Shown here one piece after another: positions 14,901-64,000 of a DNA stretch of 64,000 nucleotides (positions within the stretch are counted from its first letter, which is position 1; each line of letters opens with the position of its first letter). The DNA is taken from the NCBI GenBank assembly GCA_021234155.1, contig JAJEKV010000083.1, forward strand, positions 3,810,573 through 3,874,572, given 5' to 3'. Position numbers and translations under genes: made by a program. A model generated the notes under the pieces. It saw only the letters and a list, made by a program, of their open reading frames with translations, ran no database searches and was not told where the DNA came from. The stretch comes from Isoetes taiwanensis. Lineage: Eukaryota; Streptophyta; Lycopodiopsida; Isoetales; Isoetaceae.

Positions 14901-17900
14901 ATTTTATCATGATCAGATTGATTTTAAACTTCCTATATCCCCAGATCGAGATCTATTCTGCATCACTTCGAGCAGCTTTATGTCTCAAACACTTGGCTAA
15001 GCTCTGCCGCTGCCCATTGAAAGAAGATTGAATTTGGACAAATGCTTTGCTCATGGCTTTATTGTGAGACCTGGCTACTTACATGTTGGCTGCCCAATAG
15101 TGCGAGGTTTTCAATAGGACAATTTAGAGTGCCTTCCCACCATGGAGAGGCTAGGCATATTAATTGCGAACAAAAAGCGTCCCATGATCTTGATTTGATT
15201 GTGCAACTTTGGAAGATAAAACTGCCTCTTTAAAGATCTAATAACCTTGCAGAAGATCAAGCAGAACGCATGGCTCTATTAGTCATGAACTCTCCAAACA
15301 ACAAAGGAGCGTATTCCAAAAAAAGAAAAAAACGGAGAAATGATGAGGACAAAAGGTCCAAGACAACCAGAGATAACTTTCTTCACTGTTAAAAGACCAT
15401 CCGTGCTGACAAAGAGATGGTATAAGCAAGGACTCACTGAGAAAAAGAAGTTTTGAGCCCAAGGGAGAAACATTAGCAGTTTTTACAAGAATAAAATAAT
15501 CAATAATGCAAAAACACAAGTCGTCATTGCTGAAGAGGAAGTCTAATAGGCAACAAAGGGACCAAGTGCTAACATAAGGACTTATTTTAGGGTGACCAAT
15601 AGGGCCATCCCTGCAAGGCTGAAGATTTTCTATCCTTTGTCATAGTTACATTGAGGAGGATCATCTCCCAGCAGGTCCAAACTTTGTACGTATGCGGCCT
15701 CAAAACCCTATGGATCTGCAGCAGATGTTATTTAAATTCTTTCTTTCTTTTTTCTTCTTTCTTCCCTTCTTTGTTTCTTGTTGTCTATAATCTCGCTCTT
15801 GGAAGTCTCTAGAAAGAAAAAGCAGGCAGCCAAAAAACGCATAAACGGTCATTTAAGGGAGAGAACAAAACCCATCATTCTTGGACCAGCATCTAAGAAA
15901 AAGACAAAAATTTCTTAAAGTTCTAACGTGCTTTTTTTTTTTTTTTTGGTGGGTAAATTCTAGGTGGTCACAATGAACCCCTAGCTGTTCAGGAACTGAT
16001 GTAATAATTGGTCACATACACATCTTCCCCAGATGTTAATATAATCTTTCTTTCGTATACAGCCATATGCAGAAAGCACAAAGCACTAAGATGAGAAGAT
16101 AGAACTCACTATAGGATTATCTGGTAACCTTGGATCTGTAATTACAAAATTCTTCTCAATACGTTCAAGTGTGGTTGCTAAGTCTATGCCTTTCCTCACT
16201 TCCTTTACACGCTCCATATGATCAGCTTCATCAAGTGTTTCCAAACCAGGAAACTTGGTAGTGCTTGGCTTCCTTGCCAATACAAAGCAATCAATAATTA
16301 ATCTAATTGCATCAAAATGCCAGATATAAATGCCTTCTAGCAGGGAAAATGAAATTACAATTACCCAAACAATGAGAAGAAACCTGAACGTCTTCGACCA
16401 CGTTTCATCTCTTCTTTCGCAATAGGAGCAGCTTCAGAGATCTCCTTAAGCCCACTCTTGTAATCTTTGGTAACATTTCCCCCAAAAACAATGTAGGAAT
16501 TTAGAACTTATAACCTCCACAAAAATCTTAAGAAATACCTGTTCTTGATTTCTTAGTTGAAAAAAGGCCCTGAACATCATCCAATAGTTCTGAAAGTGAA
16601 CTAGTTACTTTGTCCTTCTGCCGTGCTGTAATTCACATTTGTAATTTCCATGGCCTTTTATGAGTTTGATTTGAATATCTGTCAGTAAACATTCTCTTTT
16701 CTTTTTCAACTGTTTACCATCATATTTGATAAGAGATTCTGAAAGACCATTTGGACGCAATGCTCTATCCTTCCCTCCTTCAGTGTATTTGCTTACTTCA
16801 ACCAGCATACTGCATAGTTGAAACATGAAAGAAATGAACATTAAGTAAGTGGTAGATGGGACAGTGTGTTTATGTGGGAAATAGATCATTCTAGTCTCAT
16901 AGATACAAGCAGACTCCTGAAGACGATAATAAACCTTTCACTCTTCATCCTTCCATAAAAGCATGCAATACTCCCCAATGCCTTCATGGACATATCACTT
17001 ACCCAATGAACTTTAAAAGTTTTCCAGATTCGTCTTTAATTGGTGCCACCGTAAGAAGATTCCAGAATGCAGTTCCATTCTTCTTGTAGTTAAGCAATCG
17101 TCCACAAAAAGGTTCTCCTGCATTCAATGCAGCTCGGATCTTTGCAACTTCAACCGGGTCTGTATCGGCTCCCTGAAGAAACCGGCTGTAAAGAAATGCA
17201 AGCAGAATGGTAAATATAAGCATGACCACACTGAATATACTTCCACATGCACTTTCATCAGTTTTGATGCAACATATGCCTTCTTGACTTGAACTTTGGG
17301 AAAAAAAATTCATGCAGACTCATCAGTCCGAGATGCAAATTTACAACTGCTTCTGCAAATGCAACACATGTCTTTTTAAAGTAGCTACATGCCACTATTA
17401 AAAGAAATAGTTTGTTTAGACAAGAACGAACCAGTTTTTTCCAATTACTTGGTTTGGAGTATAGCCCGTCATGGTGAAGAAGCCCGCGCTTGCATAAAGA
17501 ACGGGATGGTTTGGATCAAGTGCATCTGCAACGACAAACGTTTGCTCAAAAGAAGAGAGGACGTCTTTCAGTTCTTTGGATAATCGAGGTATACGCTTGT
17601 AATCATCTACTTCATTTCCAGTATCAGAATCGCCAGAAGTTCTTGAAGCTCCTAGGGCATTATTTGGCTTATCTTCTCTAGAACGCCGTGCTTCTACGCC
17701 CGTTATGGTGGTTGATCCTGCATCTGCTTTCAAAATTAATCCCCATTCTGCAGCTCTTTTTGCCGCTGCTTCCACTTCCTTTGCTGCCCCTATTTTTTTC
17801 TCAATTTTAGAAGGATTTCTATTCTTTTCATCGTCTTCCAATTCCTTTTTTCGTAATTCCACGTTTCCTTCATCTTGATCTTCTGATTTTTCTTCGAAAC

Positions 17901-18069
17901 GCACAGATGAAGGACCAGCAATTGTCTTGATTGTTTTTCTGCTTGGATCAAACACTTCAAGCGAACCTCGAGCATCTCTTGTCAATTGTGTTTGCACACG
18001 GTTTTCTATGCCAAGCTGTGCTAGTAGTGCACGTAGATCTTTTTCTCTGCCTGCTGAATCTGCAGCCAT
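2985..18069 (-). CDS. PHOT: Phototropin, blue-light receptor kinase (complete, 930 aa)
   Basis: This gene encodes a plasma-membrane-associated blue-light receptor. Two LOV domains bind FMN, and light-driven adduct formation on LOV2 releases the C-terminal AGC-VIII kinase; the family drives phototropism, chloroplast movement and stomatal opening. The sequence shows LOV1 at about residues 178-280 with GKNCRFLQ (Cys213), and LOV2 at about 408-510 with GRNCRFLQ (Cys444). The kinase has a GSGDTG loop at 601-606, Lys623 in [14 protein letters not shown] with Asp719, and the family's DFD in place of DFG at 737-739. The long activation segment ends in GTEEYIAPE, and the protein ends in GSSGLF. Length is within the usual 900-1000. 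All 23 exons join in phase without a stop. The ATG at 18,069 sits in AACAATGGC; an upstream open frame has no ATG. PHOT1 versus PHOT2 cannot be decided. Confidence 0.97.
4775..5221. mobile_element. TRIM element (miniature LTR retrotransposon) inside a phototropin intron
   Basis: Two direct 144-bp terminal repeats (4775-4918 and 5078-5221) both start TGTAACAGACCC and end AACGTTACA. The 5-bp target duplication ATTTC lies outside each end (4770-4774 and 5222-5226). A copia-type primer-binding site TGGTATCAAAGC follows the first repeat by 2 bp (4921-4932). The 159-bp interior has no coding capacity, which defines a TRIM. The two repeats differ at about a dozen sites, so the insertion is old. It sits in the 2.65-kb intron between coding exons 20 and 21. 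Confidence 0.88.
5648..5955 (+). repeat. 300-bp polypyrimidine tract in a phototropin intron
   Basis: The plus strand is almost pure C and T, with irregular TTCC, CCTTT and TCTTCC runs, so the transcribed RNA carries a 300-nt purine tract. It is low-complexity and not a simple microsatellite. Three overlapping open frames across it are composition artefacts. Mirror-symmetric runs could form triplex DNA, which is inference only. Confidence 0.8.
12114..12415 (-). other. GC-AG intron of the phototropin gene
   Basis: Coding exon 8 ends ...TACACAAAAAGTG and is followed by the donor GCAAGT; exon 9 begins after TTTCAG. Only this GC donor keeps the reading frame through NYTKSGKPFWN, the conserved LOV2 strand. 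The nearby GT in AAAAGTGG breaks the frame. GCAAGT is the usual consensus of the rare GC-AG class. The intron is 302 nt long. Confidence 0.85.
12829..13010 (-). mobile_element. Ty1/copia C-terminal scrap in a phototropin intron (fossil)
   Basis: The minus strand reads [14 protein letters not shown], the end of copia pol (usual form: TNDQLADIFTKPL). The scrap is short, has no LTRs recognised beside it, and is old. It lies in the intron between coding exons 7 and 8. Confidence 0.5.
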
Positions 18070-18116
18070 TGTTTTTGAATCAAACAAGGTAAGGTATATA
18101 CGCTTCACAATGTAGT

Positions 18117-18198
18117 CTGCAAATTCAATTTCATGGCTTCAGTTCAGAATACAGAATCATAAAAATTTGAAAACCCCGAAATCTCAAAAAAATCTTAC
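18117..18198 (-). other. Probable 5'-UTR intron of the phototropin gene
   Basis: Upstream of the start codon the minus strand has a strong donor (TTTCAAG then GTAAGATT at 18,198) and an acceptor (AATTTGCAG ending at 18,117). Together they define an 82-nt leader intron that ends 47 nt before the ATG. This is inference from splice-site quality only; transcript data would settle it. Confidence 0.55.
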
Positions 18199-26310: not shown

Positions 26311-26391
26311 TCCAAAAGGGAGTATTTTAAGGAGGATGTGGGCATCATTTTTGATGTGTAATGTCCCGATTCATGTATACCCTAGCTTGAT

Positions 26392-26984
26392 TTCACCCTA
26401 TGGCTATCAATGCCTTTCCCCCAGACACGTGGCATAATCCGGTTTCCAAGGTGGAAGTCTCTCAACAATTGCTTACAGATATGTAGGCCCCTAGTCGAAG
26501 AAGTTCGAGGGTATTTGTTAGCCGCCAGAGCCCAGCAAAAGAGCCTTGCCGATCAGCATCGGACACCATGGGAATTTCAAGTTGGTGAGTCCATATGGCT
26601 AAAGATCAAAGTGAAGCAAGCCAAACTCAAAATTGGCAATTGCAAGAAGCTTGCACCTAAATGGGCGGGACACTTTGAGATAACCGGGAGGATAGGTTCT
26701 CAGGCCTACCGGTTGAATCTACTCGCGCATTTGAAGGTCCATAAAATCTTCCGTGTGAGCCTTTTCAAGAAGCATAACCCCGATCTAGAAGAGATCCTTG
26801 ATAGACCGACACTTTTGGAGATGACGGAAGATCGATTGGAGATTGCGCCTGAGACTCTCCATGTTCGTGCATACAAGCAAACTCGCAGAACTCAAATCTT
26901 GCAGTATTTGGTTAAGTGGAAACACTTGCCGACTGAGGATGCAACGTGGGTTCTTAAAGCGGATTTGGACAAGATTTACCCAGA
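26392..26984 (+). mobile_element. Chromovirus integrase C-terminus and chromodomain (outer element, fossil)
   Basis: The plus strand carries the segment after the integrase core (QQKSLADQHRTPWEFQVGE, KKLAPKWAGHFEI, LKVHKIFRVSLFKKH). It is followed by a chromodomain-like tail (LQYLVKWKHLPTEDATWV). The order and strand match the piece at 20,765-21,076. The element is interrupted again at 26,984 by the next insertion. Confidence 0.88.
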
Positions 26985-27367
26985 TGTTAGAGCCTGAACT
27001 CTAACCTTGCAAGAAGGATGAAAAACCCAACAATCCAAGCTCAATCTATCAGATCAAGGCAATGCACAACACAAAGAATCATCATCTCCATAGCTAGATC
27101 AAGTAAAACACTCTCTCCCAATACACCATCTCTCTGTTCTTCTTTCTCTGCTCAGACAATACTCTCATGATCATCCCACAATGCATACGTGCAAATATAC
27201 TGCACGCGTGCATGTGCGTATCTCCCTCCATATACGGTATACAATCTCCTATACCACCTCAATAATGGTGAGTGTGGTGAGTGGTGATGAGTGTGGTGAT
27301 GAGTGTGGTGAGTGGTGACAAGTGTGGTGAGTGGTGACGAGTGTGGTGAGTGGTGACCACCCCAACA
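26985..27367 (-). repeat. 3' LTR of the Tat-like element
   Basis: This 383-bp copy contains a minisatellite of GTGGTGAGTGGTGAC-type units at 27,270-27,355. The 5' LTR of the same element is almost three times longer because an internal segment is repeated there. Confidence 0.85.
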
Positions 27368-27897: not shown

Positions 27898-29862
27898 TCA
27901 TGGGCTTTGAAATTTAGATAGATGCTGCTTAGTGGTCCTGCACAACACCAACTGCCCTTCCTCAAATGGATTGACAACCTGTAACTTGTCTTTGATAAGC
28001 TTTACTTTCTGTTTATGCCTCATATTGAAGTCTGCTGCTTCTTGTCTCATCTCTTGCAATTGCAACAAATCATCCATCCTATTATGCACTTGATTTGGAG
28101 TTGGAACTTCTCCTAACTTCTCATAATAAGGTAGCTCCACAAATGAACACAAAGGAATGTCCAAATGAATAGGCATCACAGCTTGCACTCCATAAACCAA
28201 TTCAAATGGTGTAAATCCTGTAGCCAACTTGTAAGTGCACCTGAAACTCCATAAGGCACCTGTTAAGGCTTCATGCCAATTTCTTTGATTATCCTTCGCT
28301 GTTTTAGCCAAGATAGCTTTCAAAATTTTGTTAGTAGACTCAGCTTGCCCATTTCCCTGTGGATAATAAGCAGAAGCTTGCACATGTTGAACACCAATCT
28401 TTTCTGTTAACTGAGCTACTACTTTCCCCATGAAATGAGTTCCCCGATCAGACAAAAGAATGGTTGGAACACCAAACCGAGAAATCAAATTGTGATAAAG
28501 AAAGTTTACTGTGGTATTTTCTGTAGCATGCTTTGCTGGAATTGCCTCTACCCACTTCGTAAACATGCATGTGGCTGCCAAGATATACTTATGACCTTTG
28601 GAAGATGGAGGATTGATAGGCCCAATGTAGTCCAATCCCCACATATGAAACGGACCAACACTCAAAATAGGATGGAATGGCATATTATTGTGGCCTGTCA
28701 ATTGTTTATGCCTTTGACACTTCTCACATTTGCTAACAAAGTCTCTAGTATCTCTGTAAAGAGTTGGCCAATAATATCCCCAATGAAGGATCTTCCTAGC
28801 TGTGGTTCTGGCTGCAAAATGCCCCTGACAATCATGTGCTTGCTGCAACAAATCATGAGTTTGCTGACCAGCAACACACCTTAATAAGAGACCTTCCATA
28901 GTCCTCTTATAAAGAATAGCCTTGTGCACCACATAACTAGCTGCTTGTACTCTAAGAGCATGCTTTTGTTGCTTTGAAAATGATGAAGGATAAGTCTGAT
29001 CTTGTAAGTACCTGTATATATTGGCATACCAAAGATCCACGGTCTCAATGAACCCTTGTAATACTCCATTATCCTGAAATGCTACTTGCTGGTCTGTTTC
29101 CTCTTCTATTTCAACACCACTACTCAAATAGGCACTTGGATTATGAGCTCCTTGAGCCATCTTAACATACTTCAACTCAAATTCTTGTATGATAAGAGCC
29201 CATCTTGTAAACTTAGGATCTTGGACAGTCTTGTTGTAAATGCATGGCAACGGGTTCACATCCATATGAATGTAAACATACTGTACATTTGCTGAATTCC
29301 ATTGTGGAGGAAGAAGATAATGTCTAAATTTGTTCAAGGCCCACTTCAATGCTAACCCAAGATGCTCCACATGAGGCCATTTCTGCTCTTGTGGAGTTAG
29401 CACCCTGCTAGCATAGTAATTCACATCATAATGCTTTTGCTGATTTTTCTGACATAGTGTGACAACCAAAGCTTGCTCCCAAGCTGTAAAGAATAAATGA
29501 AATGGCTCACTCATTCTTGGAGGAATCAGCAAAGTTCTCTCTTTTAATTGTGCAAGGCACCATTCAAATGCTTCTTGAGCATCTTCCTTCCATCTAAAAT
29601 GCTGCCCTGGCTTCATACAATCCACAAGTGGCTGGGTTACTTTAGCAAAATTATGCAAATACCTCCTATTAAAACTGAGTTGGCCATATAAGCTTCTCAC
29701 TTGGGATACATTTGTAGGTGGTTTGACCTTCTCCAAGGCTGCAATCTTACCATGATCCACTTGTAATCCCTTTTCTGAAACATAATTGCCCAATAGTTTT
29801 CCTCCTCTAGTGAAGAAAAATACACTTAGCGAGGATTCAAACTTATACCATACAGCCGGCAT
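27898..29862 (-). mobile_element. Tat-like element: RNase H and integrase region (fossil)
   Basis: The minus strand encodes the RT connection and RNase H-like region (VRSLYGQLSFNRRYLHNF, VYIHMDVNPLPCIYNKTVQD). The integrase follows with a zinc-binding region (HFAART...CEKCQRHK), the core MWGLDYIGPINPPSSKGH, SDRGTHFMGKV and SAYYPQGNGQAESTNK. The C-terminus has the ELVYGVQAVMP motif. The integrase fragment at 38,336-39,103 is from a related element. Confidence 0.9.
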
Positions 29863-30101
29863 CTTTCAAGAACTTTTCTGAGATGATCCAAGTGATCCTT
29901 TCTTGGATTAGAAAATACTTTTTAAGTCATCTATAAAGACTCTCAAAAAGTCTAAAATATCATGAAAAGCATATGTCATAGCTTCATTTGAAATGCGGTG
30001 GAGCATTTGTAAGGCCAAAAGGTAATACCTTATAAGCATAGATGCCAAGCGGTGTTCGAAAAGCCGTCATTGCTTGATGTGGTGGATAGATTTGGATCTG
30101 A

Positions 30102-30830
30102 TTATATCCCGAGTAACCATCCAAGAAAGAATAGGCCTGATTTCACGCAACAATATCCAAAGAAAGTGTCTATGAATGGTGTAGGAAAATGATCTCTTTT
30201 GGTAGCTTTGTTGAGATCCCTGTAATCAATGCATACTCGGATTGGGTTATTTGGCTTTCTCACTGGTACAATAGAACTGATCCAATCTGAATTTGGCACT
30301 GGTACAATAAATCCTGCCTCCAAAAGCTTCATGACTTCAACCTTTACTTGCTCCTCTATTGCTGGACTCATTCTCCTTTGAGCTTGTTGGACTGGTTTTG
30401 ATCCTTGTTTCAAATCAATGGTATGAACCACAACCTCCGGTGGAATGCCTTTCAATTCTTTGTAATTTCTTGCCAAAACATCCCTGAATTCTCTTATCAA
30501 AGATATCAAATCACGTTCCTCCTCTTGAGTAAGATCGCCTCCAATAGTAACCAATTCTTCTTGATTGCCTTGAGAAATATTGATATTCTTGACTGAATGT
30601 GGTGACTGTAATGAATGTGGTGAGTGTGGTGACAATGACGAATGTGGTGAATGTGGTGACTGTGGTGAATGTGGTGACAGTGATGAATGTGGTGAATGTG
30701 ATGACAGTGATGAATGTGGTGACTGTGGTGAATGTGATGACGGTAGTGAATGTGGTGTAGGTGATGACTGTGGTGAATGTGGTGGTGACTGTGATGAACA
30801 TGGACTGATATGATTTACCTCTCCAAAATG
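30102..30830 (-). mobile_element. Tat-like element: Ser/Pro/His-rich linker and reverse transcriptase start (fossil)
   Basis: A repeat-encoded tract of SPHSPQS-type units (30,590-30,800) leads into the reverse transcriptase N-terminus (EFRDVLARNYKELKGIP, EAGFIVPVPNSDWISSIVPV, VCIDYRDLNKATKRDHFP). The linker arises from a 9/18-bp minisatellite in the DNA. Confidence 0.85.
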
Positions 30831-30839
30831 TGCGCATGC

Positions 30840-32470
30840 CACCAAGCTGCTTGCACCATTGCCGATTGTGCTAAAGCATCCGCCACACTGTTTTGTTCCC
30901 TTGGAACATGTATCACAATGCATTGCTGAAAACATGACTTCAAATCCATGGCTTGTTGATGTAAGCCTCTCAAATTAGCATTTAAAACCTCCATAAGTTG
31001 TTGACACACCAACAAAGAGTCTCCAAAAATAGTCAAACAATCAACATGCTTCTTTTTTGCCAAAGTCATCCCTTGAATAAGTGCATGATATTCAGCCTCA
31101 TTATTACTACTTGCATTGCATGGTATACTCAATGTAACAATCTCCTTCTTATGCCCATATATCAGAAATACTCCTACACCTCCATAATTCTTGAGTTTAG
31201 AGAATGCACCATCAAAATACATTTGTCCTTCCATAGTGGGCTGATTTCTGCTGACCCCATCCATGCTTGATGTCAAAATCAACATCTCTACTTGATCTTG
31301 ATCAATACCTTGCTGAAATAAAGTCTCCCCAATGGGTCTTTGAATGGACTCCTCCTGTATGTTTACAAGAGTCTCTTGTAACTCATCTTCACCAATACTT
31401 TCAAGTCGTTGGATATACTTATCTGCAACTTGCTGCTGTAAATGACATATTTCTGAATTTTGGGTACCTTTTAACCACTTGTACAAAGTCTTATCTTCCC
31501 TGTCACCCACTTTCAAGACATGAAAACAACTAAGACCTTGCTGCCCTGACACCATAGCATTCTCTTTGCTGATTTCTAACTGCGGGCTGCTCAAAGAAGG
31601 ATTGCAAAGAAAAGGACCTTTTGCTGATTTCAGAGGATGATCTATAGTAACCTTGTGTTCTCCTTGAAAGATGTTCATTTCACGCTTTCTCCATGAAGTC
31701 TCAGCTTGTACGACATCTAACCACGTACGACTCAGCAACAAAGTATAAGTTTCAGCATGTACACTCTCTGGAAATTTCAAAACCATGAAATCCAAGATTG
31801 CTTCCACCTCATAGACCTTGCATAAGACATTTCTTATGACTCCCATAGGCTGCACCTTCATTTGATTGAATGCTTTGAGCATCATAGTTGTCGGTTTCAT
31901 CATTTTCAATCCAACTTGAAGCATTATATGGTAAGGCATTACATTCACTCCGCTGCCAGTATCTATGTTGGCGTCTTTGATTAAATATCCATTAATACTC
32001 ACATCACAAAGAAATGGCCCTGGATCCTTGGATTGCCGGGCTGGTGGCCCCATTCTACTCTTATTGGTATCATTTGAGATGATTTGTTGGACTGAAATTT
32101 CTGATTTTGTTCTTCCCCCTAACTCTTGCAACAAATTTGGAGAATAATGCATCAATTGCTCAAGAGTAAGTGTAACTTTAGTGGCCAAAACTTGGCTGAT
32201 CACATCATCTTCATTTTGAATTTCCTCATCCACCATCGGAGGCATCACTATGGGCTGATTTTCTTCTATAGACTGAAACTGTTCTGTGGGCAACACATTG
32301 AATTGCACCTTCTTAGGTGCTGATACCTGTCCCTTCAAAGCCTTTGGAAAAGAGGTCTTAGTCTTCTCCGCAATTGGCACTACTCTTGGTTCTTGCACCA
32401 CCTTTTGTGATCTTGTAACCGCATTTACTTCTCCAATCTCTTCTTCTTGCTGAAATGGGTCATTCTCCAC
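30840..32470 (-). mobile_element. Tat-like element: protease and additional RNase H upstream of RT (fossil)
   Basis: A retropepsin-like site (DANIDTGSGVNVMPYHIML) is followed by an RNase H fold of the archaeal/plant type. Its motifs are YFDGAFS, GGVGVFLI, NEAEYHALIQG, FGDSLLVCQQL and REQNSVADALAQSAM. This RNase H is separate from the one behind the reverse transcriptase. It is unusual in lying between protease and RT. Confidence 0.85.
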
Positions 32471-32562
32471 CTCAACAAATCCACAATTTACTACTGATTT
32501 TGCCTTCTCTTGTTTCTTAAGCTCCTCAATAAGAGCCTTAACTTGAGGATTATCAATGTACT

Positions 32563-33906
32563 TTACATCTTGAATGCGAACATCATTATTAGGAAGAGGT
32601 ACTGATTCAAATACTTGCTACTTTGGTGGATACTTTTGGTTGCCCATTCTGGTTTCCCATGGATTTTCCAACAAGTAGTCTCATCATGCTTGAATTTATC
32701 ACATAGCTTGCAATATAAATGAGCCTTACTTGGATACCATCCCTGTTTTGGCTGCACCATTGATGTGGAACCCATTGGAACTTGTTGGGCAATTGGAGCT
32801 TGTGGCATCATTGGAACTTGTGGTATGATAGGTGCTGCCTGCATTGGTTGAATAGGAATAGGTGGTGCTTGTTGCATAACAGCAAATACCGGATTGGCCC
32901 TCTCAAAGAATCTCTTCTCCCTACATTCTTGATCATTATGGCCCTTGATTTGGCATCTTGAGCAGAATTTCAGCAATCTACATGTAGTATCAGAATGTCC
33001 AATAGACCCACAATACTCACAAGTAATAAACTGCACCTCCCTTGGCTTCTCACCAATTGTGAGCTTAGAAATCTTGGCTGCAATATCCTCTGTTTTATGC
33101 TCTGGAGCAGCAACTTCATGAATGTATCCCAGCTTATCTTCAGCCTTGAGAGCATACTTTTGTGCCTCTAGTAATGTTGTAGGCTGTTTGGCCTTCACCT
33201 TATTAGCAATAGCTCGTTTCAGTCCCTTCACATACCATTGAATATCCATTTCATCATTCCTTGCAATCTTCCAATGAACCACGGCTTTGAGAACCGCAAT
33301 GTACCTTTGATTATACTCTCTAATTGATTCATCTTCCTTTTGTGTAAAATTTGTCCACCTTTCCATAGTCTTATCCTTACCATGGACTTCTTGATAATTA
33401 GCAATAAATGCTTCCTTTAATTCCTGATACGTCATGGTATCTAGCTGGGTTTGTGCCCATTCTTCCACTGAATCTTGCAAAGAACTATGAAACCAAAGCA
33501 AATAATCACCAGCCGATAACTTACATTGCTGGCAATACCTCTCAAACTTTACAATATGCTTCAAAGGATCCTGATCTACCAGATCATCAAACTTTGGAAT
33601 CCCCATTGTCTGAAAACCCCATACCATAGGTGGTAATACAGCCATCTCTGCCTCTTCTTGGGTTTCTTCAAATTGGAAAAACGACATTGAATCTCCCTTC
33701 AATTTGAAAAACGAAATTGGATTACCTTCTAGATCGGTAAATGGAATCAAAACCTCCTGGATCTGAGAACTAGACCCCAGATCTGCTCCAATATCTGAAA
33801 ACAAAATTGAATCTTGATGCAATTTTGAGCCCAAAGATTGACTCACCGGTCCCCTTCTTGTTACGATGGAGCTTAGTGGGATCTCCTTCTTACTTCTCTT
33901 GGGCAT
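32563..33906 (-). mobile_element. Tat-like element: gag (fossil)
   Basis: This is a 447-codon gag region with the capsid-like segment WFHSSLQDSVEEW and FTQKEDESIREYNQRY. Two zinc knuckles follow (CEYCGSIGHSDTTC, then CSRCQIKGHNDQEC), and a third CxxC...H...C group near the end. The ATG lies about 190 bp inside the 5' LTR boundary. Confidence 0.9.
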
Positions 33907-34096
33907 AAAACTATGCTCCCCTTGTCAAATTTACCCCACAAATCAATTACGGCAAAATCCCCTTCACCCAAAAAAATTGCTCCTTCCTCAATGGTGTCGT
34001 TCTTTACCGACGATCACCAATACCAATGGTAACAACTCCTTTTTCAATGGAAATTCTTGCCGATCACTGGTCTGTCGAGCACCGTGGTCGCCAAAT

Positions 34097-45669: not shown

Positions 45670-48423
45670 TTATGCCTGATTATTGGTATTGGGAAGAGTT
45701 CCATGGGTGAGATGATCATGAACCGTTTTAAACAGGGAGCAGTGAGCAGGACGATGGTGGATGTAAATGCCTCCCAAGTTATTGAGCTTGATATATTCTG
45801 CTTTCTCTTTGATAGACCGAGCATTATCATAAAAACAAATCAGCTTTCTCTCTGAATGATAAGCATATGATGCTTTAGCCTCGTCGTCCCACCTTTCCTC
45901 GAATCCATGGCCGACCAATTCGCTGTGACAAAGGCCCGTCATGTTATCCGGCAGGCCTGGTTTTGCAGGCTGGCCAATCTCATCAGCATTGGAAAATCCC
46001 AAAGCATAATCTCCAACGCCTAAAAAGAGTTTAGAGGATTCAACCCCTCTAGATGTGTAGTATTTAACAGCTTCATCAAAACTGGTATCTTGATGGGAAC
46101 TTGAATACAAATTATATCTATGGCTAGCTGATTCCTCGCCTGGGCTAAAATGGTGAGCTGTTTCTCCGCCTGGGCTAGGATCGTAGTAGTACAACTGGAT
46201 TTGATCAATTAGATCGGAAGTCCTTTTGTCGATTGGGCATTTGTTTTTTGTTGGTTTTCTAGAAGCAGTAATACCAATTACAAAAGGTCGAGGTAATACA
46301 GATCGCAGCTGCTCTAGCACAAGTACAAAGTTTTTTGCATCTTCATGTCTAACGCTATTGCCAGTCTTGCCATAATTCACCCCATCGTTGCTCCAAAACG
46401 TCCAGTCAATTGCAAGCCCATTGAAAATTGGATATGCTCTGCACAATTCTAACACAGAGTTGATAAACCTAGTGCGATTTTCATCCGTGGAGAATGCATC
46501 TGAAAAGTTATTTGAATTGTTCCATCCTCCTATAGAAAAGGAGATATTAAGCTTCTTCCCTTGATCTACAACTAGCTTTTTGAACTGTCCAAAAATTCCC
46601 AAATCCTGCTGAAGATTTCCAGACAAATGGTTTTGAGGTTCAATGCCTGTATCAAAAAAAGGGTTGCCAAGACTAGCAAAAGGCTGCTTGAATTTTATCT
46701 GCCCAGAGGATTCAATACTCAGACCACACAATTCAATGTCGACCAGACTATCTATGGGTAAATGTCGAACTCCGTCCCAAAAAAACCTTCCCCAAAAACA
46801 GTAAATTGCTCTTTTTCCTGTGGGGGTCTTATTAAAGATCGGAGGCATCACTTTCTGACATTCTTCACCAAGTGTTTCTGTGTACTTTCTGAAATTTAAC
46901 AGTACTCTCTCATCAATGTAACTTGGCATTTCATCTTGTCTGATCAAAATGCTTTCCTTAAAATTCCATAAATGGCCACAAATTTCCTCAAAGCTAGAAC
47001 GTTTATTCTTGTCTAGTTGTAGGCAATTAGATATGATCGTGTAGAGAGGGATAGGGATGCCTTTAAGACAAGAAGGCATTTGGCCGTTCTTCAAACCTTC
47101 CTGCATATCTGAGTTGGGGGGTTCTCCAGTAAGGATCTCCATGCAGACAAGGCCATAGCTAAACACGTCAATCTTCCTAGAGTAGTTGTCTTCATCTGCC
47201 ATCTCAGGGGCCATGTACAATTTTGTACCTCTCATTTTTGTGTTGTCATCTTTGGTTTTAAAGTCTGCTTTACTTATACCAAAATCAGATAATTTGACAG
47301 TCAAACTTCCATCCTCTTTATACTCCTTTATTAAGATATTTGAGGTCTTTACATCTCTGTGAATCACATCACCTTTATGTAAATCCCTCATTCCCTTGGC
47401 AATTTGAAGCATGAGATCTGTTGATTCATAGAGGGAAAATGGAGGGGTCGCTTTCTTTTTATTCTGCTCTATAAGCTTTTGTAAATCCATGTCCATAAGC
47501 TCCATAACAAGGGTCTTCCTGATGCCACTACCACTGTGCCCAAAAATCTGTACTATGTGGGAGTAATTTGTGCTCATCAACTTCATAAATATTTTAAGTT
47601 CATATGCAAAGTGTGGATCGCGGAAGAACTCTTTTACAGCTACTGGTTGTTCACACCAATGTGCTTTCCTCACAACTCCATAAGTGCCCATTCCCAAAGG
47701 TGTATCTGGTATTAAAACACTATCCGCAATGCTAACTTGATGCATGCGTCCCTCCAACAGTCCAATCAAGCCAGAAAGATTATAACGTTTGGAAAGACTA
47801 TTATTCCTTGTCTCCCATGGCTTATTAAACCAGCTAGAACTACGAGTAAGTGCATTCCTGTGCTCCTTTAGGTCCTTTATAAGTGCATTTCTGTCTTGTT
47901 TATGAGCTGATGTAAGGGCATTTTGCAGCATGCTACAATCTAACTCTACTTTATCGAGGAGTTGCTTAATAAGTTCCTCTTTATCTGGATTATGATCTGG
48001 GTCAAACTTCACAATACGTTCTATCATCCTATTCATCATTTGACAATATCTTTTTACATCATCAACGATTTCACAAAACTCACCTGCATTGCCAAGAATG
48101 ATAACTGATTTTGCATAGTCTTCCTTTTCACATTGCTCAAGCAGTCGTTTACCCCTTTTCACAACGCCAAGCAGCTTTTCCCCTACTGCTGCTGCAGACT
48201 TTGTATTTACTTCTTCTCCAAATCCACCAATCCACCATAGTTGCACATATTGTGCTGTACAATCTATAAGGAATTTCATAACAGCACATTTATTTTCATT
48301 AAAAAGTTTGCTGCTGCTAGATTTCTTGCTGCTGAATGTTTTACTCTTTTCGTGATAGAGAGCAAGGATATCAGTACAGAGAGCAAGGATATCAGTAGCC
48401 CAATTAGCTTGGATCTGCTCCAT
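45670..48423 (-). CDS. Serine/threonine kinase fused to a C-terminal GH18 chitinase-like domain (917 aa, intronless)
   Basis: One uninterrupted ATG-to-TAA frame. Residues 1-230 are predicted helical and charged (LLEQCEKEDYAK, VDDVKRYCQMMNRMIE), loosely like the N-terminal bundle of plant MLKL-type kinases. Residues 240-490 are a full TKL-like kinase: GMGTYG loop 244-249, Lys264 in VAVKEF, Glu275, HRDVKTSN at 355-362, DFG 380-382, APE 405-407. Residues 538-900 are a GH18 fold: the start YCFWGRFFWDG, the SIGG motif at 630-633, and FNGLAIDWTF at 667-676 where active chitinases have DGxDxDxE. The catalytic Glu is Thr675 and two Asp positions are Asn668 and Ala671, so hydrolysis is unlikely. No signal peptide or membrane helix is seen, so it probably acts in the cytoplasm. 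The role is unknown; sensing or defence is inference. Confidence 0.88.
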   Translation of the reverse strand: MEQIQANWATDILALCTDILALYHEKSKTFSSKKSSSSKLFNENKCAVMKFLIDCTAQYVQLWWIGGFGEEVNTKSAAAVGEKLLGVVKRGKRLLEQCEKEDYAKSVIILGNAGEFCEIVDDVKRYCQMMNRMIERIVKFDPDHNPDKEELIKQLLDKVELDCSMLQNALTSAHKQDRNALIKDLKEHRNALTRSSSWFNKPWETRNNSLSKRYNLSGLIGLLEGRMHQVSIADSVLIPDTPLGMGTYGVVRKAHWCEQPVAVKEFFRDPHFAYELKIFMKLMSTNYSHIVQIFGHSGSGIRKTLVMELMDMDLQKLIEQNKKKATPPFSLYESTDLMLQIAKGMRDLHKGDVIHRDVKTSNILIKEYKEDGSLTVKLSDFGISKADFKTKDDNTKMRGTKLYMAPEMADEDNYSRKIDVFSYGLVCMEILTGEPPNSDMQEGLKNGQMPSCLKGIPIPLYTIISNCLQLDKNKRSSFEEICGHLWNFKESILIRQDEMPSYIDERVLLNFRKYTETLGEECQKVMPPIFNKTPTGKRAIYCFWGRFFWDGVRHLPIDSLVDIELCGLSIESSGQIKFKQPFASLGNPFFDTGIEPQNHLSGNLQQDLGIFGQFKKLVVDQGKKLNISFSIGGWNNSNNFSDAFSTDENRTRFINSVLELCRAYPIFNGLAIDWTFWSNDGVNYGKTGNSVRHEDAKNFVLVLEQLRSVLPRPFVIGITASRKPTKNKCPIDKRTSDLIDQIQLYYYDPSPGGETAHHFSPGEESASHRYNLYSSSHQDTSFDEAVKYYTSRGVESSKLFLGVGDYALGFSNADEIGQPAKPGLPDNMTGLCHSELVGHGFEERWDDEAKASYAYHSERKLICFYDNARSIKEKAEYIKLNNLGGIYIHHRPAHCSLFKTVHDHLTHGTLPNTNNQA
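48356..48400 (-). repeat. 21-bp tandem duplication within the kinase-GH18 N-terminus
   Basis: GAGAGCAAGGATATCAGTA occurs twice in a row, giving the repeated peptide TDILALCTDILALY near residues 10-23. It is in frame, so it lengthens the first helix by seven residues. Confidence 0.75.
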
Positions 48424-48609: not shown

Positions 48610-50120
48610 GTCTGGGTCCCGGCAACGACCAATAAAGGCTCTCAACTGGGTTATGTTAACGTACGTCAAAGCAAGTATTCATAAATCCACATGCAGCCTG
48701 TATTGTAGCTTGGGTGGGGTAAAATTTAAGCTAGGCGGAAGGAGCCTATTAAAATCCAGATTTCATCCGGAAAAATGTAACAAAAACCCATAGATTTTTT
48801 TTCCGGTCGAACATTCTTGATTTCAACAAGCACGATGCTAGATTTTTTTTCCGGTCGAACATTCTTGATTTCAACAAGCACGATGCTAGTGTTCCTAGGA
48901 ATTCGGCATACACTGATTGTAGCATGACATGTAAACCACCGGGCAAGTATTCTTAAATGCACATGCAATCTGTATTAATTAACTTCATATAAGCCACCAA
49001 GCAAGTATTTATAAATGCACATGGAGCGTGTATATACAGGCAACGACCAATAAAGGCTGTCAACTGGGTTATGTTAATGTACGTCAAAGCAAGTATTCAT
49101 AAATCCACATACAGCCTGTATTGTAGCTTGGGTGGGACAAACTCTAAAAACCTAACAAGTATATTTCCTGTAAAATTTAAACTAGGCAGGCGGAAGGAGC
49201 CCATCAAAATCCAGATTTCATCCGGAAAAATGTAACAAAAACCCATAGCTTTTTTTTTCCGGTCGAAAATTCTTGATTTCAACAAGCAGGATGCTAGTGT
49301 TCCTAGGAATTCGGCATACACTGATTGTAGCATGACATGTAAACCACCGAGCAAGTATTCTTAAATGCACATGCAATTTGTATTCATTAACATCATATAA
49401 GCCACCAAGCAAGTATTTATAAATGCACATGGAGCGTGTATATACAGGCAACGAACAATAAAGGCTGTCAACTGGGTTATGTTAATGTACGTCAAAGCAA
49501 GTATTCATAAATCCACATGCAACCTGCATTGTAGCTTGGGTGGGACAAACTCTAAAAACCTAACAAGTATATTTCCTGTAAAATTTAAGCTAGGCAGAAG
49601 GAGCCTATTAAAATCCAGATTTCATCCGGAAAAATGTAATAAAACACATAGATTTTTTTTTTCCGGTCGAAAATTCTTGATTTCAACAAGCAGGATGCTA
49701 GTGTTCCTCTGATTGTAGCATGACATGTAAACCACCGAGCAAGTATTCTTAAATGCACATGCAATCTGTATTAATTAACTTCATATAAGCCACCAAGCAA
49801 GTATTTATAAATGCACATGGAGCGTGTATACAGGCAACGACCAATAAAGGCTGTCAACTGGGTTATGTTAATGTACGTCAAAGCAAGTATTCATAAATCC
49901 ACATGCAGCCTGTATTGTAGCTTGGGTGGGACAAACTCTAAAAACCTAACAAGTATATTTCCTGTAAAATTTAAGCTAGGCAGGCAGAAGGAGCCTATTA
50001 AAATCCAGATTTCATCCGAAAAAATGTAACAAAAACCCATAGATTTTTTTTCGGTCGAAAATTCTTGATTTCTAGCAAGCCAGATGCTAGTGTTCCTAGG
50101 AATTCGGCATACACTGATTT
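48610..50120. repeat. Four-copy tandem array upstream of the kinase-GH18 gene
   Basis: The landmark GGCAACGACCAATAAAGGCT (one copy has GAACAA) recurs at about 48,618, 49,038, 49,447 and 49,832, giving periods of about 420, 409 and 385 bp. Each unit also has AGCAAGTATTCATAAATCC, AAAATCCAGATTTCATCCGG, a run of T before CCGGTCGA and GCATACACTGATTGTAGC. The copies are highly similar. Small open frames inside are shadows repeated with the unit. Confidence 0.9.
48791..48888. repeat. 48-bp duplication nested in the first array unit
   Basis: The block from the T-run through CCGGTCGAACATTCTTGATT to CACGATGCTA occurs twice head to tail only in this unit. It explains part of the length difference between units. 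Confidence 0.85.
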
Positions 50121-53100
50121 ACACATGCTCTTAGCCGGTGGGTCTTTTGGTCTAGTTGATCATAGCCATCCATTCTACCCCTATGATAGGGCAGAATTGG
50201 CTAATGTCCCATTCACATGCGCACAAATGAAATAAAGACGGTTGTAAGTGGGCATCACATCTACACAGCACTGCAAGATTTCAAGTAGCACTGCAAATTT
50301 GCAAGCCGCCTCGCGTAGACCTATGCACCGCTTGTCACGCCTACCTTTGTCACTGCTGCAAATTTTTGGGCTCATGTGAATCCTATATAAGTCTTTCGGA
50401 TTTGAGCTGACAAGCTGCGATGCCTTGAGAAACAAGTTGCCTTGCCTTGGTTTTAGCTTCGACTAGTGATAAACTAGGTGGGGGGAGCTTCGTATATCTC
50501 AAGCAGGATGTGGTTAATGTGGCCAAAACATTTGTGGTTAATGTGGCCAGGCCACAATAACTATTGGTTAATCGGGCCATCCGATATCAGTCAGGTAGTT
50601 AATAGAGCACAAAAAGTAGTTAATGTGGCAAAAAAATCAGGCTTTAAACTCCGCGGTGGAGGATATAAATTTCAATCAACTGCTTCTTTCTGCTTCATGG
50701 ACGGTTTGATTTGCTCTAAAACCCATGCCAATCTGCTCCTTTTATGCTACATTGGTGAAGGGAGGAAGAGACTTGAGGCAAAATGGAGCCAGGTCAACCA
50801 AAAAATACGCAAGAACAGTTGGTGCTATTAAACTAGGCTGGTCTATTTAAAAAAAAATGGTTAATTAATTGCAAGATATGTGGTTATTTTTGTCTAATAT
50901 GTAGGGGTGAGATAAAAAAGGTTAGAAGAATTTATACCTCTTGACATAGATAAGTGTACATAAGGTTTGACAACGAGAGTCCAAACCACCAATATCAATT
51001 GCAGGTTGCAACCACTTATTCCATTTGGAGAAGAAATTTATGAACATACGTACTAGTTACAATGCCCCGCGTTGCTGGACATCATGTGAGAACTTGTAAA
51101 TGTTGGAAACCAGTAAGTGTAAATGCTAGGCATCGTGTGACGACCTGTAAATGTTGGAGGTCTATACATATCGATGGGCATTCCTATTTATAATATCCGG
51201 AGAAGGGGCATTATGTGCGTATATCATAAGAATTTCTAATTGATGTTGTGACACTGTCTATATAGACTGTCTAAGAATTTGTTTATTTGTGATGCTATCT
51301 ATATAGAATGTCTACAATGGGAATGTCTTAGAATTTTATTTAGTTGTGACCTATCTATATAGAATATCTTAGCCATTGAATGTGTCTTGGTGTTGTGTTC
51401 AATTTAGTGGCATATAATCCTCTTTTTGTTATCCACTTTTACTCCATTATTGCGATGTCACACTAGAGATCCTAATCGTTAAATGGAATGAGATGGGATT
51501 GAAAGCCAAGTTTGGCATTCATTTCAATTCAATTGCCCTATCATAAATAAAGGGTTTTTATTGTCCATTTGTTGCTTTTCTTTTGAACAATCATGTGGCC
51601 CATAATGATCCTTTTCTATTTGCTTTTGCTTTCTTAAAGCACTATTTCATTACCTGTGGACTTTGCTTTGGTCCATTTTAATCCTAAATTACCACCATAT
51701 AGTTATAATATGCGGTTTGAAGTTGAGGAATTTTTGTGGCTAATGGCAGTTACAAACTTGCTTTGTTTGGCCACACCAAATTGGGCGATTGCCCAACCTA
51801 ATAGGTGTGCGGAGCCCTGGCAGGACGAAAACAAAGTTCCAAAAATTAATTGAAGAGAAGCGGGCAAAAAAGGTTAATGTCATTGAAGAAACGGCCAGGT
51901 TTTGGCACACAGTCATACGACATTCATACATTTAAACAATCAAACGGGCGCCCACCTAATTTGATGCAAATATTACAAAATAAATACAGGCTTAAGAACT
52001 GAAATTGGGCGAACGCCAATTTTTAAGTTCACTTCATAAACAAGGTTTCATGGCTTGGGCTGCACTTCCTTAGACTGCACCTCCGGATTACTTTTCACTT
52101 GCGCACTATTCAGGGCAGCATCCATTTTTTCTACGAACTCTGTTGAATTCAACGATGTGTTCTCACTCCTCCCGTTCTTTTGGGTTGTCTTCTTTATATT
52201 CCCCTTTGTCCTCGCCTCCCTCTTTTTGTTCCTCCCCGTTAGTCTCTTTGTCGAACGTGTTTCCCTCCTGTCCCTCGTTAAAGTTCCTATCTTGCGAGCG
52301 TGACAACCAGAACCATTGGTCCACCTTCAACAAACAACTAGAATCTAGTGCTCGCTTCAAACACATCCTACATCGAGACAACATCATGGCCCGTAAGAGC
52401 ATTGATATTGTCCTTCTTTTTCCCAAAAGCCTCGATCTCTTTCAACCCAATTCCAGAGACACCAAAAATGCTCCATAAGGCTGCCTCTACTTTGCTGGAG
52501 AGCAGATTGCAAGCTTCCCAATTCCTCCACTGAGTAGGGATGTGGTCGGGGTTTTGGCTAGTCTGTACAAGAGGTATACGATGTTTGAACTAAGGGGTAT
52601 ACGATGTTTAGAGCTTGTTTAAGGTCCATACTAGAAGATATAAACAAGGTAGTTACTTCAAGAATGCTAAAGATACAACCAAGAAATTTATTCCCAACTG
52701 CAACGAGAAGGAAGATAATGTCATCAAGTGAAGCAAACATGTGGGCTTTGGCAGGGAGGAGGCCAAGATAAAATAGAATTGATGATTCAATCAAGTGTTA
52801 GGTTCATAAATTTTGGCATGAGTCGCCAAAGGTTAGAGATATCATGAAGAGGAGAACACAAGCGATACAATACCTTGACATCTCATATGCCTTCTTTTGT
52901 AATTAAATCTATTCTCATTTGAGATTATATTCCCCTCTAAAATTATTTCATGACTTTCTTCTGTACATTCTAATGCAGTTTTCCTAGTGACCTATTAATG
53001 AATGCACATGGTTTCCATGAAATGTATTGCATCTCAATGTTTGTTACATTGTTTACATGGTAGCAGGAATCTTGCAGTCATATGATATTAGGTACTTTTT

Positions 53101-53500
53101 AGATGTAAATCCCTTTACATTTACATATCTATCTAGCTGCACTTACAAGTACTTGAATATTAGATTTACATTCGTCTATATTTAAATATGTAGCATTATA
53201 ACAGGGGTTTTTTTTGTGATTTTATACGCTTTTTGGCATGGTTTTCATATGATTTCATGGGCGTATTGCACGAGGCATACTAATCAATATATCTAGAGTG
53301 CACTCCGCATTTTTATTGTCGAAATTCCATATCCCCAATAGTTTACCCCTTTTTATTTTTATTCCTCTATTTCTTTTTAATAAGCCATACATGAATCATC
53401 GAGATGTTTCATTTTAGGGTTATTCTAGGGTTAGCTGAAGCATTCTCTGTCTCAGGTATGCAGGTGCTATGGGTTCGAGGTTCTGTGTGTTTTCTTGGTT
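50121..53500. other. No intact gene recognised
   Basis: AT-rich. Short direct repeats around CTATATAGA lie at 51,255-51,370. On the minus strand at 52.06-52.54 kb, open pieces such as EACNLLSSKVEAALWSIFG and DNINALTGHD look like decayed coding sequence of unknown family, broken by stops. A short C/T-rich run lies at 52.15-52.25 kb. Confidence 0.4.
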
Positions 53501-53519
53501 CTGTTTTCCGTGTGTTCTT

Positions 53520-53990
53520 GGGGAGAAAATTTGTGTTGGTTCACGGATCCGACCATGGCGCCTGGTGCTGGTACAAGCTCATTGATCGGCTACAACGCCA
53601 AGGCCACACCGCCATAGCGTAGATCTATATGGTTCCGGTGTTCATCAAGGCCATACATTTCATCATTCCTTTTGTGGCTGTTCTTTCTTCCTAAACCTAG
53701 GTTTCATTGCTGATTAGGTCATATTAATTAGTCACAGTATGGGCGGGTTAGCAGCGACCAAGGTCATGGAGCTTTTTCCTCAAAAATTGCTGCCTCTGTT
53801 TTTATCTGCTCTACAATGCTTCGTTCTGGAAACTACCAAACACTGGAAACAAAGTTTGCATGACAGGGTCCAATAATGGTGGTTGTTGGAGAAAACTATA
53901 CTGGGTCTGGGGCCAGATCTATATATATGAATTTCTCTTTTTTTCTGCTTCCTTCTCAACGAGTCCGAAATGTCTGACACAGCCCCGTGA
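53520..53990 (+). pseudogene. Methylesterase-like (MES, alpha/beta hydrolase) gene relic
   Basis: The plus strand shows the start of a plant MES/hydroxynitrile-lyase-type hydrolase: KFVLVHGSDHGAWCWYKLI, then QRQGHTAIA. It continues as DLYGSGVHQ in another frame. After a possible acceptor the nucleophile region follows: VILISHSMGGLAATKVMEL, then FPQKIAASVFI (Ser in SHSMGG). In the family these enzymes demethylate hormone esters such as methyl salicylate or methyl jasmonate. The segment between DLYG and VILI is shortened. The frame shifts after GHTAIA, a stop follows ETKFA, and the catalytic Asp and His parts are not seen. It is a host-gene relic unless unusual splicing rescues it. Confidence 0.65.
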
Positions 53991-54289
53991 GTATGCTATG
54001 CTGCCATTTTTGCTTGTATTTTCTTTCAGTTGTAGGATCTAGATATTTAACACTTGGATTTCTTGCAGGCCTCTCTGGAATTACGATTGCGTTCGGGTAA
54101 AGCGTGACTATCTTTGTTGACATGTGTCGAGGGACTGTGCGGTTTCAAAGGAGGAAGAATACCCATGGTTTATACCTTGTTGTCTTCACCCCGAGAATTT
54201 CACCGCTGAGTTTTGCAAGTTGAATGAAGGATTTTAACGTTCGATTTTGAAGCATAAGATAAGATTTGTTGAATTACATGCGGATATGG

Positions 54290-54820
54290 AGAGCTAGCAT
54301 AGTGGAATGCATTGCCATGGCGATCTTTGTGTTTGGCAAAGATCACAAGCATATTTGTGGGCATAGAGCGATTACCGCACGGCTCATCCCTAGCAAAGAA
54401 TAAGCATCCTGCATTTTTTCATGATTGCATTCTTGATCATGGCGGCGGTCCGGCGAGGAGGAGGCCATCTTAATCCTTGCATCACAACATTGATAATGTT
54501 GGCTGGCCGCGCGACTCCGGCCCAGGTCATCCTCCTCATAATAGGCCAATTCATAGGCTCGGTTCTGGGATCTCTATCCATCAAAGCCATAGCTCCAGAT
54601 CTAGCTCATAATCGTCTTCTTGGGGGTTGCATAATCAACACCCCTCTCTGCAGTAGATGCCCCATTTCAATTCCGACCTCTCTGGCCAAGGATTTGGGTT
54701 TCATAATAGCTAGGCTCCTTTCTACTTTTCTCACATTTCAATTTCTGCATCCTTTCACTTACTGCCCCATTTATTGCACCTATAGTAGTACCAATGGTTT
54801 GAGGAATGCTAGTATTTGAG
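54290..54820 (+). pseudogene. XIP-like aquaporin (MIP family) gene relic
   Basis: The plus strand has a recognisable N-terminal half of a membrane-intrinsic protein. An IVECIAMAIFVFG first helix (about 54,309) is followed by a second helix and the half-helix motif GGHLNPCIT (NPC in place of NPA). Helix three comes next (QVILLIIGQFIGSVLGSLS), then NRLLGGCII. The LGGC motif in loop C points to the uncharacterised X intrinsic proteins. After about 54,640 the similarity fades and the second NPA is not found. A frame change separates the first helix from the second. The family conducts water and small solutes; this copy looks dead. It lies 0.3 kb behind the methylesterase relic on the same strand. 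Confidence 0.55.
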
Positions 54821-62912: not shown

Positions 62913-64000
62913 CAAGTGGTATAAGAGCCTATCGATCCTCATATCTGATCAATGGCCCAACGCTTCAATGTTACTGAAGCACAATATCAGCAAGCTTTGT
63001 CTAATGCTGGTTACATTGCATCCCAGTTAGCATTGCCCACGCCTAGCAGTCAGCAAGAGTATGATAGGCAAGTGGAATTGCTGTCTATTCTATACCGCTT
63101 CCTTCCAGATATTTATCTGCAACCTTCGCAACCTCCTTTGCCTAATAGTCCTCCTCTAGTAATTCCTCCACCGCCACCTAAGCTGAGAAAATGGTTAGAG
63201 AAAGCGGATATGCCGTCTTTCAAAGGGGGAAAGACAAAGCCTGTCAAGGTTGTTAGTTTTATCAGCCAGTGGGAAAAGTTCTTTGAACGAGTGCAGGCAA
63301 CAGATGTGGAATGACTGCAAGCTATGGACACTTATTTGAAAGATCGAGCTCAAGCATGGTGGCAAGGCAGACGAGAATGTGATCCCAGGATCAACAATTG
63401 GGAAAGTTTCAAAATGGCATTTGAAGCACATTATTTACCCTCTAACTATCACAGTGAGTTACACAGGGAATGGGATCGTCTGAAACAGGGGGAAACTAAG
63501 AGTATTCAGTCCTACACTTCCAAATTCACTCATTTAGCGGCATTAATAAGGAATCTGGATGGAAAAGAGCTGCTGAGAAAATATGTCAGTGGATGTAGGG
63601 ATGATATTTATGCGGAAATGGAAATATTTCACCCCAAAGATTTAAATGAAGCCATAAAACTAGCATCTGCAGTGGAGCGGAAAATAGATCCAAAGTCTAG
63701 GAAGTTTGATATTTGGGATGAGGAAACTTCAGATCAAGAAGACAAAAAGAGTAGTGAAGAGAAAAACGGAAGTAAGGAATCTTCCAAGAACCTCAGGAGG
63801 AAGAGAAATAATGGCAACGGAAATGGTTCCGAAAGGAAGCGAGAGGAGGGAAGTCAAATTAGACTGCGGAAGGAAATTAAGGAACCAAAGGGAGGATGCG
63901 ATAGATGCGGAGGAAATCATTTCCTAAGGGATTGCCCGTTTGGAGAAGGGGGGATCACAAAAGTTGAACCACCTAAATCTCAAAAGGTTGTACCAATGCA
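62913..64000 (+). mobile_element. LTR retrotransposon 5' part: primer-binding site and gag, runs off the window (fossil)
   Basis: TGGTATAAGAGCC (about 62,919) is a tRNA-Met type primer site. Gag starts MAQRFNVTEAQYQQAL at 62,952. It carries a Pro-rich segment (PPLVIPPPPPKLRKW), the capsid-like core (YLKDRAQAWWQGRR, FEAHYLPSNYHSELHREW, LKQGETKSIQSYTSKF) and a zinc knuckle (CDRCGGNHFLRDC) at about 63,900-63,940. The pol region lies beyond the right edge, so gypsy is likely but not proven. It is broken. Confidence 0.85.

Follow-up and report, generated by a model that had tools for sequence, protein, structure and literature searches.

A lycophyte kinase family joined in one frame to a GH18 barrel lacking the chitinase catalytic glutamate, with variation concentrated on the former substrate cleft

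The window, a 64-kb stretch of DNA from the quillwort Isoetes taiwanensis (a lycophyte), contains an intronless gene (copy L064) that encodes a protein kinase followed by a glycoside hydrolase family 18 (GH18) domain. The initial annotation had read the two domains as one uninterrupted frame with a complete kinase and with neither signal peptide nor membrane helix. The frame runs for 917 codons from ATG to stop; 30 mononucleotide shuffles of the window gave stop-free runs of at most 221 codons. The parts of the gene are as follows.

45670..48423, minus strand: whole open frame, 917 amino acids plus stop, single exon, uninterrupted from ATG to stop
47749..48423, minus strand: N-terminal module, residues 1-225, predicted all-helical (predicted model; alignment A5 of 35 family members)
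46966..47703, minus strand: protein kinase domain, residues 241-486, catalytic motifs present (Pfam and motif reading)
46849..46965, minus strand: linker between kinase and GH18, residues 487-525 (by-eye alignment with several paralogs)
46846..46848, minus strand: Met526 (MPPIFNKTPTGKRAIY), coinciding with the start of unfused relatives
45700..46827, minus strand: GH18 (beta/alpha)8 barrel, residues 533-908, without the catalytic Glu (sequence and predicted barrel)
46399..46401, minus strand: codon 675, encoding Thr where unfused enzymes have their catalytic Glu (by alignment)
46120..46179, minus strand: pair of 30-nt direct repeats (77% alike) within the catalytic-side loop that follows strand 6

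A Pfam scan matched both domains (Pkinase, residues 242-486, E 1.8e-42; Glyco_hydro_18, residues 599-890, E 2.6e-44), and every kinase motif was located in the window protein (G-loop, VAVK, alpha-C Glu, HRDxKxxN, DFG and APE). By hydropathy and eye, we see no signal peptide at the protein start and no membrane span (highest 19-residue Kyte-Doolittle mean, 1.23). The domain order is, as had been noted, opposite to that of CHRK1-type receptors, in which a membrane span lies between the GH18 domain and the kinase. The linker retains codon-position bias, and the strand-6 loop repeats fall at a gap in the alignment of relatives. The two protein halves were modelled separately, since a joint alignment had misplaced kinases. 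Both domains of the initial annotation stand as described; the helical part at residues 1-225 had gone unmentioned and the loss of the catalytic Glu had not been foreseen.

We searched the genome (1,658,258,908 bases in 1110 pieces) for further members of the family and obtained 65 matches; because the best 50 of 1777 candidates were scored, all family counts below are lower bounds. Fifty loci were taken (L064-L113) and 46 analysed, leaving out L065 (the same as L113), L092 (the same as L103), L088 and L101; they hold 52 matching open frames, some of them from overlapping loci. At least 16 frames run uninterrupted through the N-terminus, kinase and GH18: L064 (the window gene), L113, L066, L067, L068, L070, L071, L076, L078, L081, L084, L096, L097, L098, L099 and L100, with the L097 frame ending about 60 residues before the GH18 end. 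Eight more (L072, L073, L080, L104, L105, L106, L109, L110) match all three parts with a truncated or degenerate GH18. The fused copies are partly clustered (e.g. on C1075, C1090, C1106 and C1110) and partly dispersed. The initial annotation held this to be a real fusion gene, a view that would fall if the two parts were always separate genes in related genomes; in its own genome they are joined in 16 uninterrupted frames, the window's included.

Kinase residues are kept throughout the uninterrupted copies: the Lys, alpha-C Glu and HRD Asp are present in 16/16 and the DFG Asp in 15/16, missing in L099, while the HRD His is replaced by Tyr in L076, L078, L081 and L099. Other C-terminal modules follow the same kinase in some members. 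Two of them (L103:2273-4972 and L090:1396-3705) share the family N-terminus and first kinase and continue into a second kinase instead of GH18, and L112 ends after the kinase. Tandem kinase proteins, an architecture known from cereals, thus occur in a lycophyte. The 27 family kinases placed on the kinase tree form one clade (98/97) with L090 nested among fused members (82/61 and 95/89); as fused and unfused members are interspersed, the family has gained, lost or swapped its C-terminal module.

The GH18 domain of the window protein has the (beta/alpha)8 barrel of its family and carries Thr675 where the DxxDxDxE motif has its catalytic Glu. This Glu is found in 0/16 uninterrupted fused copies versus 14/14 unfused enzymes, and in 0/20 once the partial copies L077, L079, L082 and L091 are added; ten different residues occupy the position in fused copies (M, T, N, R, V, H, F, L, S, Q), and L104-L106 have an alignment gap there. 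Four other cleft residues, each invariant in the 14 enzymes, are likewise nearly absent from the 16 fused copies (W546, 0/16; M745, 0/16; R808, 1/16; W889, 1/16). The barrel scaffold is conserved in the fused copies despite the loss of the catalytic Glu.

To locate the variation, we took as catalytic face, for every one of the eight strands of the predicted barrel, its final two residues plus the next six, a definition chosen after the motif table had been inspected. Mean column entropy in 20 fused copies is highest on the catalytic face (1.84 bits), followed by strand cores (1.45), helices (1.07) and the opposite face (0.93); the 14 enzymes have 0.91, 0.90, 1.35 and 1.12 bits in that order. 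In the 16 uninterrupted copies the face is hypervariable (1.85 versus 1.25 bits elsewhere) and in the 14 enzymes the relation is reversed (0.91 versus 1.16 bits). The difference in the fused copies was reached by 3/375 circular shifts of the position set.

Selection was tested with custom-written codon likelihood models (F3x4, iqtree topology, scaled branch lengths) rather than codeml. In the window clade (11 sequences, some of them truncated or broken) the ratio of nonsynonymous to synonymous substitution rates (omega) is 1.50 on the catalytic face versus 0.60 elsewhere, exceeding 1 at p 5e-5. By class, omega is 1.79 on the catalytic face, 0.44 on the opposite face, 1.04 in the strand core, 0.39 in helices and 0.88 in other loops. 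Removal of the strand-6 loop leaves a catalytic-face omega of 1.40 (p 0.001), and eight shifted position sets give 0.41-0.85 (8/8 at or below 0.85). Restriction to the 7 uninterrupted copies of the clade yields 1.50 on the face versus 0.52 for the rest (p 0.001), and 1.37 versus 0.54 (p 0.048) for codons more than 2 from any gap. Site models (M2a versus M1a) on the same 7 copies give p 3e-16 for GH18 (8% of sites, omega 6), p 0.05 for the kinase and p 0.31 for the N-terminus, with 6/15 selected sites lying on the catalytic face compared with 22/273 of the other sites; with 11 sequences the GH18 site model gives p 3e-35. Positive selection on the catalytic face is thus seen in one clade.

The GH18 part has one origin on its own tree, where the 20 fused rows placed (about 14 uninterrupted frames plus partial or degenerate ones, including the long branches L104 and L110) form a single clade (99/98). 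Its sister is an unfused pair from the same genome (99/99), L094:2950-4227 and L095:3050-4150, both of which retain the catalytic Glu (DWEY); L094 is a GH18 domain with CBM5/12. Acquisition of this pair by the plant from a microbe is possible. The position of Met526 coincides with the starts of unfused relatives, e.g. MPPFFSSPTGKHCIL in P0073 and MAPPAQVSPPSGKRAIYY in L094, and Met526 is likely a fossil start codon of the GH18 gene's own. From the alignments and tree, an entire GH18 gene, start codon included, appears to have been appended to the 3′ end of a kinase gene. A search for a CBM5/12 remnant in the window found none (best E 0.17, far from the gene).

Of the 13 closest database relatives, 12 are environmental proteins and one is fungal, from Saitoella complicata, all at 32-41% identity (22 matches from 3200 candidates). 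Since the candidates were restricted to 504-1604 amino acids, unfused plant GH18 proteins (~400 amino acids) could not appear among them. By sequence, the solved structures that come closest belong to microbial chitinases (best 60 of 127 PDB matches); no hevamine-type or class V chitinase of plants is named in the structural and PDB matches listed, which is not evidence of their absence. A viral source was considered but not adopted, as IMG/VR gave 3 distant loci (24-29% identity) and the best viral matches by structure, to mimivirus, marseillevirus and Homavirus, reach 20-23% identity. A bacterial source was likewise not adopted: 60 prokaryote loci are mostly 20-31% identical, and the few higher values come from short segments.

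Neither the 64 matches of one search (7991 candidates scored) nor the 22 matches from 3200 candidates include a protein that has both domains, in searches that admit proteins of this size but have limited sensitivity, with records from the plant's own genome possibly missing from the databases. The titles and abstract beginnings listed by searches of open-licence PMC literature, some of which had other aims, contained no description of a kinase-then-GH18 fusion.

The N-terminal module is predicted to form helices at residues 2-30, 36-65, 74-100, 103-110, 113-140 and 146-194, with a predicted local distance difference test score (pLDDT) of about 33-59; this model hints at a four-helix bundle followed by a long helix that would act as a brace. 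Pfam returned 24 families for the N-termini, all weak, with the unrelated PhoU best (0.0024 in one member). Among the 24 are MCAfunc (0.082), RPW8 (0.11), DUF7792 (0.044), all sub-threshold, and HetE-N, four families that are helical-bundle or HeLo-like. An hhalign comparison with eight MCAfunc stretches of the same genome scored 20.7 at a probability of only 2-4%; the reversed profile reached 13.9 and the best of 30 shuffles 19.4. Searching the PDB with a profile of 35 N-termini produced no match below E 0.18, and residues 1-242 had zero database matches at E 0.001 among 2057 candidates.

As in the kinase fusion proteins (Sr43, Pm4, Lr9, Yr36 and tandem kinases), an intact kinase is here joined in one frame to a C-terminal domain that is either unrelated or another kinase. 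The present proteins differ from the Sr43/Pm4/Lr9/Yr36 type in forming a multigene family built on a single dead enzyme barrel, the cleft of which diversifies. In the parts of PMC10260397 available, the described kinase fusion proteins appear to be Triticeae-only, with no GH18 among the partner domains named. The plan of a predicted helical N-terminus followed by a kinase resembles that of the Pm13-type MLKL kinase, which has an N-terminal helical bundle, a brace and a kinase with all key residues in the available passages of PMC10951266; the N-terminal fold is a prediction in our family, and those Pm13 passages mention no GH18. CHRK1-type proteins are, according to the portion of PMC5485988 at hand, plant proteins with an extracellular GH18 and an intracellular kinase, whereas here the order is reversed and no span was found. 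Bryophyte kinase-NLRs (NLR, nucleotide-binding leucine-rich repeat receptor) also join a kinase to a recognition module in non-seed plants (PMC12512272, in part); the window protein, however, has no Pfam match to NB-ARC or leucine-rich repeat (LRR) domains.

XIP-type xylanase inhibitors, as presented in the accessible part of PMC12329526, are plant proteins with a GH18 fold that lacks the catalytic motif and bind fungal xylanases. A GH18 fold without the catalytic motif is what we find here as well, but XIP-type inhibitors are separate hevamine-like proteins, whereas this barrel is part of a kinase fusion and has its nearest database relatives among environmental and fungal GH18 enzymes, many of which carry CBM5/12. 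Chi-lectins (YKL-39, Ym1), animal proteins without a kinase, likewise have a GH18 barrel and are among the structural matches, the YKL-39 entry being titled a pseudo-chitinase.

We favour, at a probability of roughly 0.55, the reading that these proteins are cytoplasmic receptor-like kinases for which the cleft of a dead chitinase serves as a recognition surface that diversifies, after the pattern of cereal kinase fusion proteins. A kinase gene with a helical N-terminal module would have gained a whole GH18 gene at its 3′ end; enzyme function would then have been lost, with the barrel retained as a scaffold and the former substrate cleft diversifying between copies. The cleft may bind a changing range of microbial glycans or proteins as non-self ligands, or else guarded proteins of the host, and binding would put the neighbouring kinase and N-terminal module into a different state, producing a signal, perhaps in immunity or cell death. 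Wheat kinase fusion proteins, Pm13 and the XIP-type inhibitors each offer a precedent for one part of this arrangement. The initial annotation's suggestion of a GH18 binding module fits the loss of catalysis and the variable cleft, with ligand binding itself a conjecture. A broader claim, that this is a lycophyte intracellular receptor class in which the mouth of a dead chitinase barrel is the hypervariable surface, combined with an active kinase and a helical output, as a TIM-barrel counterpart of the NLR LRR, we put forward only tentatively and would not bet on.

Several observations weigh against the favoured reading. Many family copies are truncated or broken. L109 and L110, degenerate near-copies outside the counts, carry Glu at the position of residue 675; they were excluded for their degenerate GH18 (of the two, L110 was scanned and has no Pfam GH18 match). 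The elevation of omega is confined: clade 3 (L078, L081, L082) has 0.41 on the face versus 0.35 for the rest, clade 2 (4 sequences) has 1.47 versus 0.64 without support above 1 (likelihood-ratio test statistic 1.7) and 0.92 versus 0.47 when extended to six sequences, and the closest pair, L064/L113, has no elevation on the catalytic face. Diversification is therefore supported in the window clade, possible in the second and unseen in the third. With 9 sequences (two truncated), the kinase and N-terminus also give a site-model p of 0.02 at omega 1.7-1.9. L068 and L071 differ by a synonymous divergence (dS) of 0.044 in GH18 versus 0.29 in the kinase, a contrast that, read from these sequences, is gene conversion or module exchange between paralogs, and gene conversion is able to disturb codon models. 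L100 has a strongly hydrophobic, membrane-like stretch (residues 526-544) at the kinase/GH18 junction; this stretch adjoins a duplicated GH18 start.

If the GH18 domain became useless after fusion, its active site would drift while folding preserved the scaffold. The broken copies and the confined elevation of omega listed above agree with such relaxed constraint, but neutral drift yields omega at or below 1 and not the supported 1.4-1.5, the site model rejects it at p 3e-16 in the 7 uninterrupted copies, and helices and opposite face remain at omega 0.39-0.44; we regard it as rather improbable. The GH18 domain might instead be an integrated decoy or guarded platform that mimics or binds a pathogen-targeted host chitinase-like or cell-wall protein, with the kinase or an NLR partner reporting the tampering. 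Integrated decoys have been proposed for wheat kinase fusion proteins (PMC10260397, in the part available), and an unfused cousin enzyme is present in the same genome. A decoy is expected to stay target-like, yet the residue at the catalytic Glu position differs from that of the unfused enzyme in 16/16 copies, and we consider this account unlikely.

The same molecular means could also serve variable recognition outside immunity, e.g. of self and non-self or of symbionts; the sequence evidence indicates diversification and no particular biological role, although we give this alternative little weight. That neighbouring genes or a misassembly were read as one frame is scarcely credible: the frame is known here from genomic sequence alone, but the same joined order recurs in 16 frames (the window's included) on several contigs, and the linker has codon-position bias and can be aligned among paralogs.

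What is known of recognition inside plant cells comes mostly from LRR-based NLRs and, in cereals, from a few kinase fusion proteins with integrated domains that resist easy interpretation. In this family a set of paralogs reveals variation focused on what was once the substrate cleft of a now dead enzyme, so that swapping clefts between copies could test what an integrated domain does. The family offers an example of an enzyme fold converted into what may be a diversifying binding scaffold, and it bears on recognition in lycophytes, little studied so far. The comparison suggests that the kinase-GH18 fusion is a variation on kinase fusion proteins; should its function be shown, the hypervariable dead barrel would count as a novel type of receptor domain.

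Directly upstream of the gene start, at 48640-50200, lie diverged tandem repeats of ~400 bp (by eye), with a perfect 48-bp duplication at 48791-48886. Parts of Ty3-type retroelements are found at 27898-33924 (minus strand), 26386-26997 (plus strand) and 63315-63998 (plus strand), with frames for gag, RNase H and integrase, part of a chromodomain and a further gag frame. At 3211-18138 (minus strand) is a gene of ~15 kb with many exons that we take to be phototropin-like, from its motifs and a weak PAS_9 match below the cut-off; its pieces are a LOV-like exon at 17416-18138 and presumed kinase pieces near 8.3-8.6, 7.4-7.6, 6.4-6.7 and 3.2-3.4 kb. The many exons of this gene contrast with the intronless kinase-GH18 gene in the same window. 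With a phototropin-like gene and Ty3-type elements present, the window is therefore plant nuclear DNA. Short frames at 53395-54573 show some resemblance to a methylesterase-like hydrolase and an aquaporin.

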